Shown here piece after piece: positions 173-7,682 of a DNA stretch of 36,731 bases (position 1 is the first letter of the stretch; every line of letters starts with the position of its first letter). Position numbers and translations under genes: made by a program. The notes below the pieces were generated by a model. The model was given only the letters and a program-made list of their open reading frames with translations. It did no database searches and was not told where the DNA came from. Source of the stretch: Thermoplasmata archaeon (GTDB taxonomy: Archaea; Thermoplasmatota; Thermoplasmata; Thermoplasmatales; ARK-15); NCBI GenBank assembly GCA_023261745.1, contig JAGDXR010000004.1, positions 1-36,731 of the forward strand. The letters are read 5' to 3'.

Positions 173-688
173 ATGTCCAAAAATATAACAAAAAAGGAAC
201 TTGAAAATATGCTTAATGAGGAGAAAAATAAGAACACTGAACTGAAGAACAGGATAAATGAAAAGGAGGAGGAGATAAAAAAGTTGAATGAAAGGATTCT
301 AAGGATGCAGGCAGATTTTGATAATTATATTAAAAATATTAACAAGGAAAAGATGGAAATGATGAAAATTATTTCAACTGAAATTGTTAAGGAATTCATT
401 GATGACCTTGAAAATATGGAAAAGCTCAAGGATCAAATAAAGGATGAAAATATAAGGGAAAGCATAAATATAATAAAAAACCATATGGAAAGGACACTGA
501 TGAAATTTGGTCTCGAAAAAATTGAATCCGTGGGGATGAAGTTTGATCCATTCCTTCACGAGGCAGTAAATATAGAATATTCCGATGAAGGTGAGGATGG
601 TCTGATAGTTGAAGAATACAGGAAAGGTTACAGGATAAACGGAATTGTTGTGAGGCCATCAATGGTCAAGGTAAAAAGAAAGAGGTGA
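173..688 (+). CDS. grpE: GrpE nucleotide exchange factor
   Basis: Coiled-coil N-terminus, GrpE C-terminal pattern ([10 protein letters not shown]...VRPSMVKV), immediately upstream of dnaK. Confidence 0.93.
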
Positions 689-693
689 AATAT

Positions 694-2517
694 ATGGAGA
701 AGATTATAGGAATTGATCTGGGAACGAGCAATTCAGCTGCAGCAGTGGTGATTTCAGGGAAACCGGTAGTTATTCCTAGTTCAGAAGGGAACACCATTGG
801 AGGAAAGGCATTTCCAAGTTATGTGGCATTCACGAAGGACGGTCAGCTTCTGGTAGGTGAACCTGCCAGGAGGCAGGCACTATTGAATCCCGAGGGTACA
901 GTATATGCAGCAAAGAGGAAAATGGGTACAGATTACAGATATAAAATATACGGAAAGGAATACACACCACAGCAGATTTCTGCATTCATACTCCAGAAAA
1001 TTAAAAGGGATGCGGAGGCTTTTCTTGGTGAAAAGATTACAAAAGCAGTAATAACTGTTCCAGCATATTTTGATGACAACCAGAGGCAGGCCACAAAGGA
1101 TGCAGGGACAATAGCTGGTCTTGATGTGGTTAGAATAATAAATGAGCCAACGGCAGCATCTCTTGCATATGGTCTTGACAAACTTGACAAGGAACAGAAA
1201 ATCCTGGTTTATGATTTTGGTGGAGGAACGCTTGATGTCACCATAATGGAATTCGGTAACGGTGTATTTGAGGTCATCTCAACTTCAGGAGACACACAGC
1301 TAGGTGGAACTGATATGGATAATGCAATAATAGATTACATTGCGAGTGAATTTTACAGGAAGGAAAAGGTTGATCTTAAGAACGATAAGCAGGCATTTGT
1401 CAGGTTAAGGGACGCGGCCGAAAAGGCAAAAATTGAACTGTCCACATCCCTTGAAACGGAAATAAATCTTCCGTTCATTGCAATGGGTACTGATGGTCCA
1501 AAGCATCTTGTGATGAAGCTTACAAGAGCAAAACTAGAGGAACTTGTAAGGCCAATAGTTGAAAAGACAGGTGAATCCATAAACAGGGCTCTTGAAGCTG
1601 CGAAGATTGATAAAAATGGCATTGACAAAATAATACTTGTTGGAGGACCAACGAGAATGCCTATAGTTCAGAAATACGTTGAAGATTTCTTCGGAAAGAA
1701 AATCGAGAGGGGAGTGGATCCCATGGAGGCGGTGGCCATAGGTGCGGCAATACAGGGAGCAGTTCTTGCCGGGGAATTAAAGGATATAGTTCTCCTTGAT
1801 GTTACACCTCTGACATTAAGTGTTGAGACTCTTGGAGGTATTGCAACACCGATAATTCCGGCGAATACAACAATACCAACCAGGAAGTCACAGATATTTT
1901 CTACCGCTGCAGATTTCCAGACCACAGTAACAATACACATAGTCCAGGGAGAGAGGCCCCTGGCAAAGGATAATGTTTCGCTTGGAATGTTCAATCTTGA
2001 GGGTATACCTCCTGCACCGAGGGGTGTGCCTCAGATTGAGGTGACATTTGACATAGATGCCAATGGAATTTTGCATGTAACTGCAAAAGATCTTGCAACC
2101 GGAAAGCAAAATAGCATCACAATAACATCATCAACAAAATTATCCAAGGAAGAGATTGAAAGGATGAAGAAGGAAGCGGAATCATTTGCTGAGCAGGACA
2201 GGAAGAAAAAGGAAGAAATAGAAATAATCAATCAGGCAGAGTCTCTTGTTTATTCTTCAGAGAGGTTCATAAACGAGAATAAGGACAAACTTGACCAGAC
2301 AAAGGTTACCGAGGTTGAAAAGATAATCAAGGATCTAAAATCATATACAGAATCAAGGGATATTGAAAAAATAAAGAATGGAATAAGGGATCTTCAGGAC
2401 AAGGTTCAGGAACTTGGATCATCCATGTACAGGAAGGTAAACATATCGGGCGATGAAAAGAAGGACAGCAATACGGTCGATGCTGAATATAAGGAAAAGG
2501 ATAAGGGTAATAGCTGA
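694..2517 (+). CDS. dnaK: DnaK (Hsp70) chaperone
   Basis: [30 protein letters not shown]. The ORF track begins at a GTG (685); the ATG at 694 ([11 protein letters not shown]) is more likely. Confidence 0.97.
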
Positions 2518-3590
2518 TGGCTGAAGAAAAGGATTATTACAGAATTCTGGGGGTAAGCAGAAATGCATCCAAAGATGAAATAAAAAGGGCATACAGGGAA
2601 CTGGTCAAAAAATACCACCCAGATTTACATCCTGATAATAAAAAGGAATACGAAGAGAAATTCAAGGAGATCAGTGAGGCCTATGAAGTTCTCATGGATG
2701 ATGAAAAGAGAAGGATATATGATCAGTACGGTTCGGAAGGCATAAAATTTGGAAATCAGGGATTTGACTGGAACAATTTCACTCATTATGAAGACATTCA
2801 GGATCTTTTCAGGGACTTCATGAACAATTTCGGATTTGGAGATTTCTTCAGATCTGAAAAAGGTAGCAAAAACATGCATTTAATAATAAACATTGATATG
2901 AAGGATGCTTACAGGGGTTCAACAAAGGAAATATCTTACAGCAGGAACGTGAAATGTGAAGCATGTAATGGCACCGGTGCAAAGGATGGAAAAACAAAGA
3001 GATGCCCTACATGCAATGGTACGGGTGAGATGAGAAAGGTAAGGAATGCCGGATTCATGCAGTTTGTCAGCGTGGAAGTCTGCCCCACCTGTGGAGGTAA
3101 GGGATATGTTCCTGTTGAACAGTGTCCCGTGTGCAAGGGAAAGGGGTATTTAAATAAGAAGGAGAATCTGGAGGTCAGAATACCTCCCGGAGCTGACAAT
3201 GGCCTCAATCTCAGAATTAAAGGAAAGGGAAATGAGGATGGAGACCTGATACTGACAATTAGAATCAATCCTGATAAAAATTTTAACAGGGATGGGGATG
3301 ACCTGTATACGGAAATAACCGTGCCTTTCACGGAAGCAGCTATTGGAGGTGAAGAAAACATCCAGTTGCCTGACGGTGAGAATATAAGAATAAAAATACC
3401 ACCCGGAACACAGCCGGGGGAATTGATAAAACTGAAGGGAAAGGGTATGCCGAGGTTGGGCAGACACGGCAGTGGGGACCTTTTCATAAAAATAAACGTT
3501 TCCATACCCAAAAATCTCACATCGAGGCAGAGGGAATTGCTGATGGAATTTGAAAGGGAAAATGATAAAAGGGGTTTCTTCAGAAGATAA
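2517..3590 (+). CDS. dnaJ: DnaJ (Hsp40) chaperone
   Basis: J domain with HPD ([11 protein letters not shown]), four CxxCxGxG zinc-finger repeats, DnaJ C-terminal domain. Confidence 0.97.
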
Positions 3591-3621: not shown

Positions 3622-4518
3622 ATGTTACCCAAAGAAGTTGTTGAGAGAACGATCTATTCTGTTTCTTCGATATACTCTGAAAACGTTGTGGGTGGAATAA
3701 AGAAAAAGGAGGAAATAAGCAGCGGAACAGGGTTTTTCATCGATAAAAATATCATCGTTACCAATATGCATGTAATCATAAATAGGGACAATATCATGGT
3801 AAAAACATTTGACGGGGAGGAAATAATACCAAAATTCATGGATGGAAGCATCAATCTTGATCTTGCATTTCTTGATCTTGGAAATGTCTCCTATTCTCCC
3901 CTGACATTTGAAAACTCTGATCTTTTAAAGATAGGTGAATATGTAATCGCCATAGGAAATCCACTTGGTATATTCGGTAATCCAACGGTGACATTCGGTA
4001 TAATAAGCGCAAAGAACAGAAATGCCATGGTAAACGATATCTTATTTGAAAATTTGATTCAGACGGATGCTGCCATAAACCCGGGGAACAGCGGTGGCCC
4101 TTTGCTTAATATGGATGCAAGGGTTGTTGGAATTACATCATCAATGATATTTGATGCTCATGGCATCGGATTTGCAATTCCGTCCAATACGATCAAAATC
4201 GCATATGATACATTAAAGGCGAATGGAAAACTGCCAAAAATAAAGCTTGGCATTTCAGGGATATCACTGGACCAGAATATCCCAAAGAAAATAAAACAGG
4301 AGGCAGATTCCGGAGTATACATTACGGATATAAATCCGGGATCGCTTGCTGAAAAAAATGGTCTTATGAAGGGGGACATAATCCTTGAATTCAACGGAAA
4401 CAAGGTTTTCAGCATAGAGGATCTGAGATTTAAATTGGCCATGGCAATTGAAACACAGAAGGTCATTCTGACAGTTCTGAGAGACAGAAAATTAATTAAT
4501 ATAGAGATAAATGTTTGA
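3622..4518 (+). CDS. HtrA/DegP-like trypsin-fold serine protease with one PDZ domain, no signal peptide
   Basis: Triad motifs TNMHV / LDLAFL / GNSGGP, followed by a PDZ region (GVYITDINPGSLAEKNGLMKGDIILEFNG). The N-terminus MLPKEVVERTIYSV is not signal-like. Confidence 0.9.
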   Translation: MLPKEVVERTIYSVSSIYSENVVGGIKKKEEISSGTGFFIDKNIIVTNMHVIINRDNIMVKTFDGEEIIPKFMDGSINLDLAFLDLGNVSYSPLTFENSDLLKIGEYVIAIGNPLGIFGNPTVTFGIISAKNRNAMVNDILFENLIQTDAAINPGNSGGPLLNMDARVVGITSSMIFDAHGIGFAIPSNTIKIAYDTLKANGKLPKIKLGISGISLDQNIPKKIKQEADSGVYITDINPGSLAEKNGLMKGDIILEFNGNKVFSIEDLRFKLAMAIETQKVILTVLRDRKLINIEINV

Positions 4519-4521
4519 CCG

Positions 4522-5685
4522 ATGTATCTTGATAAAGAAGAAGAACGGATGATTTCAGGGGAAATGGGCGAAGGCCTTAAAATTGCAATGGAGATAATAC
4601 TGAAACTTGGTGAATTTTACGGTGCAGAGAGGACAATAAAAATTACGAGTTCACAGATTTCCGGTGTTTCATACAGGAACATAGGAGATGCGGGAATAGA
4701 TCTCCTGAGAAAATTCAGAGACTCAAAGGTATCCGTAAAGACATACCTGAATCCGATTGCATTCGACCTGAATTACCCACATGATTTTACGGAAGATGAA
4801 AATTTTATTTCAAAGCAGATGGAGATTGTTAGGATATTCAATGATCTCGGTGTATATGAATCTCTGACATGCACGCCCTATTATTATTACACACCGTCCA
4901 TTGGAGAACATCTTGCATGGGCAGAATCGTCCGCGATTGTCTATGCCAACAGCGTTCTGGGTGCAAGGACAAACAGGGAGAGCGGTATATCGGCACTCGC
5001 ATCATCCCTAACGGGAAGAACCGCATACTATGGCATGCATATGGACGAAAACAGGAAGGCATCCATTTTCATAGATACCGATTTCACCCCCGATTATTAT
5101 ACTGCCACAGTACTTGGTCTTTATATCGGGAACATGTTCAATGGCAGAATTTCATACTTCAGGAAGGCAGAAAACGATCTCGACACACTTAAGCAGCTGG
5201 GTGCAGCAATGAATGCGACCGGGAGCACGCCCATGTTTCATGTAGAGAACATCACGCCGGAATACAGGAATTCCATTGATTCAGAAAAGGAAAAAATATT
5301 CATTGAAAGGTCCGAGATAGAGGAATTCAGGAAAAAAATAAGCTCTGACATAGATCCGGATGTTTTGATGGCCGGATGTCCTCACCTTTCATCAAATGAG
5401 ATTAAAAAAATAGCAGGATACGTGAAAAATAAAAGGGTAAAAAACGGGAAGAGCATATTTCTGTTCACGTCCAGAAAAATAAAAAATGAAAATTCGGAAA
5501 TCGTAAAAATAATTGAGAATACTGGAATAAGAATCTATACAGATACATGCATGGTGGTGAGCCCTCTCAAGGAAAGGTTTAGCAGCATATATCTGTCGTC
5601 AGGAAAATCATCATATTATATAGGAAAGGAAAAAAGGATTGTTCTTGCAGATCTTTTCGGTATTCTGGAGGTCATGATGTCATGA
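4522..5685 (+). CDS. AcnX-type aconitase / phosphomevalonate dehydratase large subunit-like
   Basis: ISGVSYRNIGDAG, TCTPYYYY, GEHLAWAESSAIVYANSVLGARTNRESG, MAGCPHLSSNEI, TDTCMVV. Three Cys positions consistent with Fe-S ligands are retained. Confidence 0.88.
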   Translation: MYLDKEEERMISGEMGEGLKIAMEIILKLGEFYGAERTIKITSSQISGVSYRNIGDAGIDLLRKFRDSKVSVKTYLNPIAFDLNYPHDFTEDENFISKQMEIVRIFNDLGVYESLTCTPYYYYTPSIGEHLAWAESSAIVYANSVLGARTNRESGISALASSLTGRTAYYGMHMDENRKASIFIDTDFTPDYYTATVLGLYIGNMFNGRISYFRKAENDLDTLKQLGAAMNATGSTPMFHVENITPEYRNSIDSEKEKIFIERSEIEEFRKKISSDIDPDVLMAGCPHLSSNEIKKIAGYVKNKRVKNGKSIFLFTSRKIKNENSEIVKIIENTGIRIYTDTCMVVSPLKERFSSIYLSSGKSSYYIGKEKRIVLADLFGILEVMMS

Positions 5686-6437
5686 GGTTCAAGGGCAAAT
5701 CAATTTTCAAGGGAAGGGTAGAGGGGGAATGCGTTGTATACAATTCAGGATTATCATTTCTCGGTGGTGTAGATCCCACAAAAGGTATAATAAATGAAAA
5801 TGGAAAAAACATTTCTGACAGGGTACTTTCATTTGAAAGGAGTATAGGAAGCACTGTGGGTTCCTACATAATATACGGATTGAAATATTACGGAAATCCT
5901 CCCATGGCAATGATTGTCAATGTCCCAGATGAGACATTCATAACAGGGGCACTTGTGGCAGAAATACCATCTCTGGCATACATCTCATCATACATATTTC
6001 AGGATGGTGATATTGTACATATCGATGGTGATTACGTTGAAATTGATGTGGATCTTAAAGAGGTTGTAACGTCCATTCTGGTACATGGAGATGAGATGCT
6101 GTTGCTCAGGAGAAGCAGCAGAGTTTCAACCTATCAGGGAAAGTGGGCTGGGGTATCGGGATACATCGAGGGCCTTGATCCACAATCCACCGCAATCAAG
6201 GAAATAAAGGAGGAAACCGGGATAGAAAACCCTGTCCTCATAAGGAATGGTGGCAAAATATATGTGAGGGATGGAAAGAGGTTATGGGCTGTTCATACCT
6301 TCCTGTTTCACCTGAAAAACAAAAATGTGAATATAGACTGGGAACACACGGAATATAAATGGATAAAATTGAAAGAACTGAAAAATTTTGAAACGGTTCC
6401 CGGGCTTGACAGGGTTGTCCAGAATCTTTTATTATAA
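5682..6437 (+). CDS. AcnX small subunit (DUF126, swivelling domain) fused to a C-terminal Nudix domain
   Basis: N-terminal half: YNSGLSFLGGVDPTKGII...IGSTVGSYIIY...ITGALVAEIPSL. C-terminal half: GKWAGVSGYIEGLDPQSTAIKEIKEETGI, a Nudix-box-like segment. ATGA overlap with the AcnX large subunit. Confidence 0.85.
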   Translation: MRFKGKSIFKGRVEGECVVYNSGLSFLGGVDPTKGIINENGKNISDRVLSFERSIGSTVGSYIIYGLKYYGNPPMAMIVNVPDETFITGALVAEIPSLAYISSYIFQDGDIVHIDGDYVEIDVDLKEVVTSILVHGDEMLLLRRSSRVSTYQGKWAGVSGYIEGLDPQSTAIKEIKEETGIENPVLIRNGGKIYVRDGKRLWAVHTFLFHLKNKNVNIDWEHTEYKWIKLKELKNFETVPGLDRVVQNLLL

Positions 6438-6629
6438 CTTCTGTATTGTGATTGATCCCGTTGGACAGTTATTCATACATTCCTGGCATCCATCGATACA
6501 TGCTTCGGGATGTACAACCTTACTTACATTTTCTATTGTGAAAACTACTGGATTTGCGGGACATACTGATGCGCAAATACCACATGCGATACATGTGGCT
6601 TCATCAACTACTGGTTTCTGAGCCATCAT
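6432..6629 (-). CDS. small dicluster 4Fe-4S ferredoxin
   Basis: CIACGICASVCP and CIDGCQECMNNCP, 65 aa. Confidence 0.92.
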   Translation of the reverse strand: MMAQKPVVDEATCIACGICASVCPANPVVFTIENVSKVVHPEACIDGCQECMNNCPTGSITIQKL

Positions 6630-6692: not shown

Positions 6693-7682
6693 ATGATTTA
6701 TATAAAGGTAAAAAGGGAAGAAACGGAAAAAGCTAAGGAAAAAATGTTTGAAATGGACATGCTTGATGATAATTACAGAATATTTGTGGATGATGAATAC
6801 GGGTACATTCCCGTTAAAAATCATGTTGATGGTTACGAGATTGTGGAATCTGAAGGTGTGAGAAGACAAAGGAATCAGAATCCATATGAAAAAATAAGAA
6901 CACAGTTTCCATTGAGGGAATTCAGAGATCTTCTTCCAGATAAATGGGAGAAATTTGGTGATATAGTTTTACTGAAACTGCCAGAGGAACTGATTCCTTA
7001 TAAATATATAGTGGGAAAAACATATTCGGATGTGCTTAACGCAAAATCCGTGATAAATTACCAATATGTAAGGGGTGAACTGAGAGAACCTGTTGGAGAG
7101 ATCATATATGGAACAGATTCTGAAACTGTGCATCTTGAGAACGGGATATATTACAAATTCGATGCCCTGAAAATCATGTTTTCATCCGGGAATGTTGATG
7201 AAAGGATAAGGGTTTCAAAATTCAATCTTCTGGATATGAGAGTTGTGGACATGTTTGCGGGCATAGGGTATTTTTCGATTCCCATTGCAAGATATACCCT
7301 CGCTGAAAGAATCATTTCAATAGAGAAGAATCCCATATCACATTCATATCTGAAAGAAAATATAAAAATAAATAATGTTAAAAATATAATCCCTGTACTT
7401 GGTGATAACAGGGAAATACGAATCATGGACTGGGCCGACATGGTTTTAATGGGATACATACACACATCAAGTTTCATCGAACATGCCGTGAGGATGCTCA
7501 AAAGAAAGGGGATCATAATATACCATGACACCTTCACGAAGGAGGAAATTAGGAATATTGAAGAAAGAATGGATGAATTTTTTGGAAAATACCAGTACAG
7601 CATCATCAGAAAACACATTCTCAAATCCTATGCCCCATCGATATATCATCTTGTTTTTGACATATTTTTAAGAAAAGTTTAA
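6693..7682 (+). CDS. taw2: Trm5/TYW2-family class I methyltransferase fold, most like Taw2 (wyosine aminocarboxypropyltransferase)
   Basis: VVDMFAGIGYFSIPIAR, GYIHTSSFIEHAVRML...IIIYHDTF rather than an NPPR-type Trm5 motif. Confidence 0.78.
   Translation: MIYIKVKREETEKAKEKMFEMDMLDDNYRIFVDDEYGYIPVKNHVDGYEIVESEGVRRQRNQNPYEKIRTQFPLREFRDLLPDKWEKFGDIVLLKLPEELIPYKYIVGKTYSDVLNAKSVINYQYVRGELREPVGEIIYGTDSETVHLENGIYYKFDALKIMFSSGNVDERIRVSKFNLLDMRVVDMFAGIGYFSIPIARYTLAERIISIEKNPISHSYLKENIKINNVKNIIPVLGDNREIRIMDWADMVLMGYIHTSSFIEHAVRMLKRKGIIIYHDTFTKEEIRNIEERMDEFFGKYQYSIIRKHILKSYAPSIYHLVFDIFLRKV

Follow-up and report, generated by a model that had tools for sequence, protein, structure and literature searches.

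A conserved fusion of the AcnX swivel subunit to a Nudix domain in archaea of the class Thermoplasmata

The locus and its fused small subunit

The window, the whole 36,731-nucleotide stretch of archaeal DNA analyzed here, contains a predicted phosphomevalonate dehydratase of the AcnX type whose small subunit runs on without a break into a Nudix domain (Table 1). In a profile search the large subunit matched PF04412 (AcnX) at E 7.8e-128, and its nearest solved relative in a search of the PDB was the AcnX of Thermococcus kodakarensis (7cnr_A, E 5e-91). The protein has exactly three cysteines, C117, C286 and C343, which align with the corresponding motifs of 7cnr. In the phosphomevalonate dehydratase of Aeropyrum pernix, mutating the matching residues at sites A, 1 and B, Cys122, Cys297 and Cys356, cost more than 96% of the activity (PMC10040528), and all three cysteines of the window's protein are predicted Fe-S ligands.

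The two open reading frames overlap by 4 bp (ATGA at 5682-5685). Within the fused protein, PF01989 (AcnX swivel) matched residues 24-96 at E 1.7e-21 and PF00293 (NUDIX) matched residues 129-248 at E 2.9e-13, each above its Pfam cut-off, and the swivel sequence matched 7cnr_B of T. kodakarensis AcnX at E 1.6e-22. An AlphaFold2 model of all 251 residues has a mean pLDDT of 96.5 and a pTM of 0.88; a Foldseek search with this model took its first half to 7cnr_F and its second half to the archaeal MutT 3grn. An earlier note, made from the letters of the DNA, had named the pair as AcnX, picked out Fe-S cysteine positions in TCTPY, GCPH and TDTC motifs, and proposed that the small subunit (DUF126) is fused to a Nudix domain. 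All of this holds: the AcnX, DUF126 and Nudix profiles were each matched, the last two above cut-off and within a single 251-aa frame.

The Nudix box spans G160 to G180 and is one residue short of the canonical form between G160 and the helix; we judged it to fit the canonical pattern G-x5-E-x7-R-E-U-x-E-E-x-G-U, with K replacing R. The metal-binding residues E174, E177 and E178 are invariant in an alignment of 42 fused proteins, and their positions are likewise invariant across 69 aligned Nudix domains. The Nudix domain of the fused protein is thus apparently catalytically competent, as judged from these residues.

Upstream of the pair lie genes for GrpE, DnaK and DnaJ in a row (173-3590, named by eye) and an HtrA/Deg-like protease (3622-4518), with 3 bp between the end of the protease gene and the start of the large subunit; cotranscription of the AcnX pair with these heat-shock genes is a possibility. 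On the minus strand, a small ferredoxin-like ORF with two CxxCxxC-type motifs (6432-6629) is convergent with the fused gene and overlaps its end by a few bases.

Table 1. Features of the AcnX-Nudix locus, in window coordinates
Feature	Coordinates	Strand	Basis and remarks
AcnX large subunit (predicted phosphomevalonate dehydratase, type IIb)	4522..5685	+	387 aa; PF04412; PDB 7cnr_A
Cys117 codon	4870..4872	+	TCTPY motif at 116; aligns with the cysteine of this motif in 7cnr and, by motif, with Cys122 of A. pernix PMDh
Cys286 codon	5377..5379	+	GCPH motif at 285; aligned with 7cnr; Cys297 of A. pernix PMDh by motif
Cys343 codon	5548..5550	+	DTC motif at 341; D-x-C of 7cnr; Cys356 of A. pernix PMDh by motif
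GGAGGT, ribosome-binding-like	5667..5672	+	nine bases before the fused-ORF start; sequence read directly
Fused protein, AcnX swivel (DUF126) small subunit plus Nudix	5682..6437	+	251 aa; PF01989, PF00293; AF2 model
Swivel domain, residues 1-122	5682..6047	+	PF01989; 7cnr_F over about 126 columns, TM 0.88 by target, 40% identity (Foldseek)
GSTVGSY swivel signature, residues 56-62	5847..5867	+	alignment; gone in decayed relatives L181/L182/L179/L186
Nudix domain, residues 129-248	6066..6425	+	PF00293; 3grn_B archaeal MutT, TM 0.80 by target (Foldseek)
Nudix box GYIEGLDPQSTAIKEIKEETGI, E174/E177/E178	6159..6224	+	glutamates invariant in alignments
DWEHTEYKW, Nudix-subfamily hallmark	6336..6362	+	shared with solo archaeal and bacterial members

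Spread, origin and decay of the fusion

The fusion is genuine and ancient, and more than a hundred relatives have conserved it. Uninterrupted matches over at least 204 of the 251 residues occur in at least 149 of 400 genomes of the class Thermoplasmata, and in the window's own family the fusion is present in each of the five genomes sampled, at 47-55% identity in the other four. At the loci that we read, the AcnX large subunit usually lies directly upstream of the fused gene; the same order, with overlapping ORFs, recurs in a Methanomassiliicoccus MAG (L002). The earlier note had raised a frameshift or an assembly error as what might undo its reading, and the window does come from a fragmented genome (1.07 Mb in 68 contigs, 82.55% complete). 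However, the open frame without stops and the same fusion in all five family genomes exclude a frameshift or chimaera, as does the class-wide survey, in which the join recurs without an internal stop in those 149 or more genomes, single-contig ones included. An artefact has, in our estimate, practically no chance of being the explanation. In one genome of family f4 (G222) a swivel match is followed by a Nudix match in a different frame (C4:280675-281411; open frames of 173 and 133 aa), so that either the fused gene was later split there or the break is a frameshift.

When 392 genomes of the phylum were searched by profile, full-length fused matches were confined to this class, among the matches listed, and the roughly 250 genomes of other classes gave no full-length fused match among them. 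In those classes the swivel (profile positions 2-129) and the Nudix domain (131-258) are encoded apart, often on different contigs of one genome, again among the matches listed. In a tree of 40 large subunits, a single branch with an SH-aLRT of 100 separates all those with a fused partner from those with a plain swivel partner, and the latter mix with sequences from other classes. Because the large subunits with fused partners form one clade, a single origin is likely; a tree of the Nudix domains did not reject one origin, at weak resolution. The fusion therefore probably arose once, within the class Thermoplasmata, from two genes that other classes keep separate, and some lineages of the class appear to carry a different, unfused AcnX. 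More than one large-subunit match above cut-off was found in three genomes (G384 of family f6, G026 and G222), with four in G384, partly fragments.

The fused protein has a second history in lineages that seem to have parted with its dehydratase partner. No AcnX large subunit was found in family f14 or in most of the sampled genomes of family f15. Both families retain a roughly 260-aa protein that has the same Nudix domain, with all catalytic glutamates kept, as its C-terminal half and that lacks GSTVGSY and SFLGGVDP in its N-terminal half. In f14 this N-terminal half keeps the swivel order of secondary-structure elements, matches the swivel profile over no more than its final 32 residues (hhalign E 1.4e-5, probability 80%), and sits in a gene at the same IleRS/FEN1/Rpo7/S24e/membrane-pyrophosphatase locus as true fusions (names beyond IleRS by eye). 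The best 50 matches of a fold search with a model of the f14 protein were Nudix only, with no swivel among the matches listed. Families f20 and f29 have an unfused AcnX elsewhere in the genome and keep a remnant of the fused protein. One such f20 protein (L183) is intermediate, aligning over its full length at 36% and missing GSTVGSY, in a genome with a separate UbiD-AcnX-swivel-UbiX cluster. The assignment of these halves as swivel remnants draws on synteny, secondary-structure order, the f20 intermediate and the 32-column profile match. Taken together, where AcnX has been lost or is unfused, the fused protein appears to persist with a decayed swivel and an intact Nudix domain.

Rates of substitution are consistent with this picture. 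In an f14 genome pair dN/dS is 0.27 for the swivel remnant versus 0.09 for the Nudix domain. In true fusions selection acts on both domains, with values mostly of 0.03-0.19 and one pair at 0.39 for the Nudix domain, at very low dS. Since the Nudix domain is kept under selection beside a decayed swivel and in genomes where AcnX was not found, it would seem to have a job of its own. That it outlives the dehydratase warns against assigning Nudix function from the fusion alone, and the case shows how a domain can decay inside a fused protein.

The survey covered one archaeal phylum in depth and, beyond it, one pattern-limited scan. A literature search for AcnX, DUF126 or phosphomevalonate dehydratase joined with Nudix in an archaeal context found no paper. 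Both parts belong to known families; neither their lasting association nor the subsequent erosion of the swivel was described in the literature searched. The dehydratase makes an early building block of membrane lipids. As a conserved "Rosetta stone" made by nature, the fusion belongs to an archaeal membrane-lipid pathway, in a class that includes the Methanomassiliicoccaceae methanogens.

The role of the Nudix domain

We favor, at a probability of roughly 55%, a model in which an ordinary dehydratase carries a competent, nucleotide-type Nudix hydrolase that has its own substrate and that the mevalonate route can do without. The large subunit and swivel would form a [4Fe-4S] phosphomevalonate dehydratase that converts mevalonate 5-phosphate to trans-anhydromevalonate 5-phosphate, and a putative Nudix pyrophosphohydrolase would have been joined to the C-terminus of the swivel in the single event within Thermoplasmata. 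Its substrate would most likely be a small nucleoside or dinucleotide polyphosphate, in a clean-up role like those of MutT, NudB and NudI. The dehydratase would then be the carrier of the Nudix domain, the two presumably lacking a functional link.

The survival of the Nudix domain and its relatives lead us to this model. The NCBIfam models nearest to the fused Nudix are NudB, NudI and NudG, and no equivalog cut-off of a named subfamily (NudB, NudI, NudG, MutT) was reached, the best being NudB at 24.5 bits against 103. Because these matches lie far below the curated cut-offs, the proposed substrate class rests on weak similarity. Structure points the same way and no further, as the closest PDB relatives are mixed nucleotide hydrolases, from which a particular substrate could not be chosen. 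Solo members of the DWEHTEYKW subfamily occur in Patescibacteria, WOR-3, Aerophobetes, Bathyarchaeota and Asgard archaea. Solo genes stand in tandem with PurQ, a PIN-domain ATPase or a PrmC-like methyltransferase (neighbors named by eye), and several solo loci lie near the archaeal lipid genes GGR, GGGPS or UbiA. With partners this mixed (PurQ, PIN-ATPase, PrmC-like, Trm5, GGR, GGGPS), gene neighborhood was not decisive for the substrate either. Most fusion-bearing genomes in which Nudix genes were counted have two to four of them, the fused one included. Against the favored model, conservation of a fusion in more than 20 families is usually a sign that its parts work together, a number of solo loci are close to lipid genes, and NudB and NudI also dephosphorylate DMAPP. 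The short profile match of the f14 swivel remnant and the lack of a swivel among the listed fold matches count against it as well.

Two neighborhoods deserve mention. In the window's family a Trm5/Taw2-type tRNA methyltransferase gene is close to the fused gene (6693-7682 in the window; L211, L212, L213), and in another class one stands beside the solo Nudix gene (L003, L005, L282, L283, L288, L289), hinting that this neighborhood with the Nudix gene is old and shared. A conserved cluster in sister classes (L003, L005, L282, L283, L285, L288, L289) runs, by eye, through GGGPS, a DUF99-like gene, Pth2, geranylgeranyl reductase, Trm5, Nudix and a PIN-domain ATPase, and mixes lipid and tRNA genes.

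The earlier note had proposed that the Nudix domain acts on an isoprenoid diphosphate or monophosphate in the same route, and an isoprenoid-diphosphate hydrolase comes second in our ranking, as a possibility that we hold clearly less probable than the favored one. Such an enzyme would convert DMAPP to DMAP for UbiX, which would make the prFMN needed by the UbiD-type decarboxylase directly after the dehydratase, or would convert IPP to IP and so tune flux against isopentenyl phosphate kinase (IPK). Several points favor the idea: the Nudix domain is attached to an enzyme subunit from the only mevalonate route dependent on prFMN; UbiD, UbiX and IPK are all present in the window's genome; and the lipid-gene neighbors of some solo relatives would fit. 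There are precedents as well. The E. coli enzymes NudB, NudF, NudI and NudJ convert DMAPP to DMAP, the substrate of UbiX (PMC12359138), two of them being the nearest models to the fused domain, and in plants Nudix hydrolases together with IPK balance IP and IPP (PMC8248349); an isoprenoid role is therefore chemically plausible. However, no UbiD or UbiX above cut-off accompanies the Nudix in two f14 genomes (G008 and G020, 95-97% complete), f2 genomes lack such a Nudix but encode AcnX, UbiD and UbiX, and the bacterial members, Patescibacteria among them, are unlikely to use this pathway. Neither AcnX, UbiD nor UbiX predicts the presence of the Nudix domain. As its presence tracks UbiX and UbiD in neither direction, we rejected DMAP supply as the general reason for the domain and keep it only as a rival; the proposal of the earlier note is so far unsupported, and the choice of an isoprenoid substrate goes beyond what sequence alone can assign. 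The more specific version, in which a DMAPP (or IPP) pyrophosphohydrolase is built into the dehydratase as its own source of DMAP for prenyl-FMN or as a regulator of IP/IPP, strikes us as a shade more doubtful still. The question bears on where DMAP comes from in archaea that rely on a prenyl-FMN-dependent decarboxylase and on how the IP/IPP ratio is regulated.

Third, and improbable in our view, the Nudix domain could be a sensor: on binding an isoprenoid diphosphate or nucleotide it would control the dehydratase by way of the swivel, hydrolyzing the ligand barely or not at all. A continuous strand region connects the two domains, which the structure model shows with confidence as a single unit, and dehydration is an early committed step of the route. 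Yet all metal-binding glutamates are kept and the Nudix domain survives where the dehydratase is gone, both of which speak against a sensor.

The Nudix fold is also that of type I IPP isomerase, whose models are among the weak NCBIfam matches of some family members. Such an enzyme requires a catalytic Cys and is ruled out, to within a very small residual probability, by the lack of any cysteine in residues 119-251 and by the presence of a type II isomerase (IDI-2) above cut-off beside IPK in the window's genome.

Pathway context and known systems

The window's genome is predicted to encode the whole archaeal modified mevalonate route (AcnX/UbiD/IPK), to which the earlier note had assigned the pair. 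Matches above curated cut-offs comprise MVK (TIGR00549), a UbiD-family decarboxylase (TIGR00148), UbiX (TIGR00421), IPK (NF040647) and IDI-2 (TIGR02151), the genes for the last two adjoining. Of the three GHMP genes, one reads as MVK, one as pantoate kinase and one as a heptose-phosphate-kinase-like protein, in a search in which PF00288 may miss M3K and in a genome of the completeness given above. Elsewhere, family f20 has a compact cluster of UbiD, AcnX large subunit, swivel and UbiX with no Nudix (L207 in G026, L247 in G015), which unites the prFMN-dependent decarboxylase, the enzyme for its cofactor and the dehydratase.

One family of the same order uses the Thermoplasma-type mevalonate pathway, with mevalonate 3-kinase. 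From this the earlier note had reasoned that a complete AcnX pair would itself be notable here, which holds for one family only: AcnX was not found in family f3, by size and biology probably Thermoplasmataceae, in genomes up to 99% complete, but is present in the sampled families f1, f2, f4, f5 and f6. AcnX is normal in this order, and surprise at it applies only to f3. The window's genome differs from the Thermoplasma-type pathway in having the AcnX/UbiD/IPK route.

In most respects the window's pair resembles the type IIb AcnX enzymes of A. pernix (Ape_2087.1/Ape_2089) and T. kodakarensis (7CNR/7CNS). Common to them are two subunits encoded by adjacent genes, three Fe-S cysteines, the GSTVGSY swivel signature and the remaining archaeal mevalonate genes in the genome. 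The difference lies at the C-terminus, since the solved small subunits of this type end at about 130 aa and that of the window adds a Nudix domain. The added domain shares its fold, its E174/E177/E178 box and a similar size with MutT/NudB/NudI-like hydrolases (3grn, an archaeal MutT; 6dt3, NudI; 3ees, BdRppH), but is only 15-25% identical to them and has the AcnX fusion and the DWEHTEYKW motif as features of its own. Another related system is the plant module of Nudix enzymes and IPK. As there, Nudix and IPK occur here in one pathway and could set the IP/IPP balance; unlike here, the plant enzymes are not fused, and the putative IP/IPP role of the archaeal domain lacks the support of co-occurrence.
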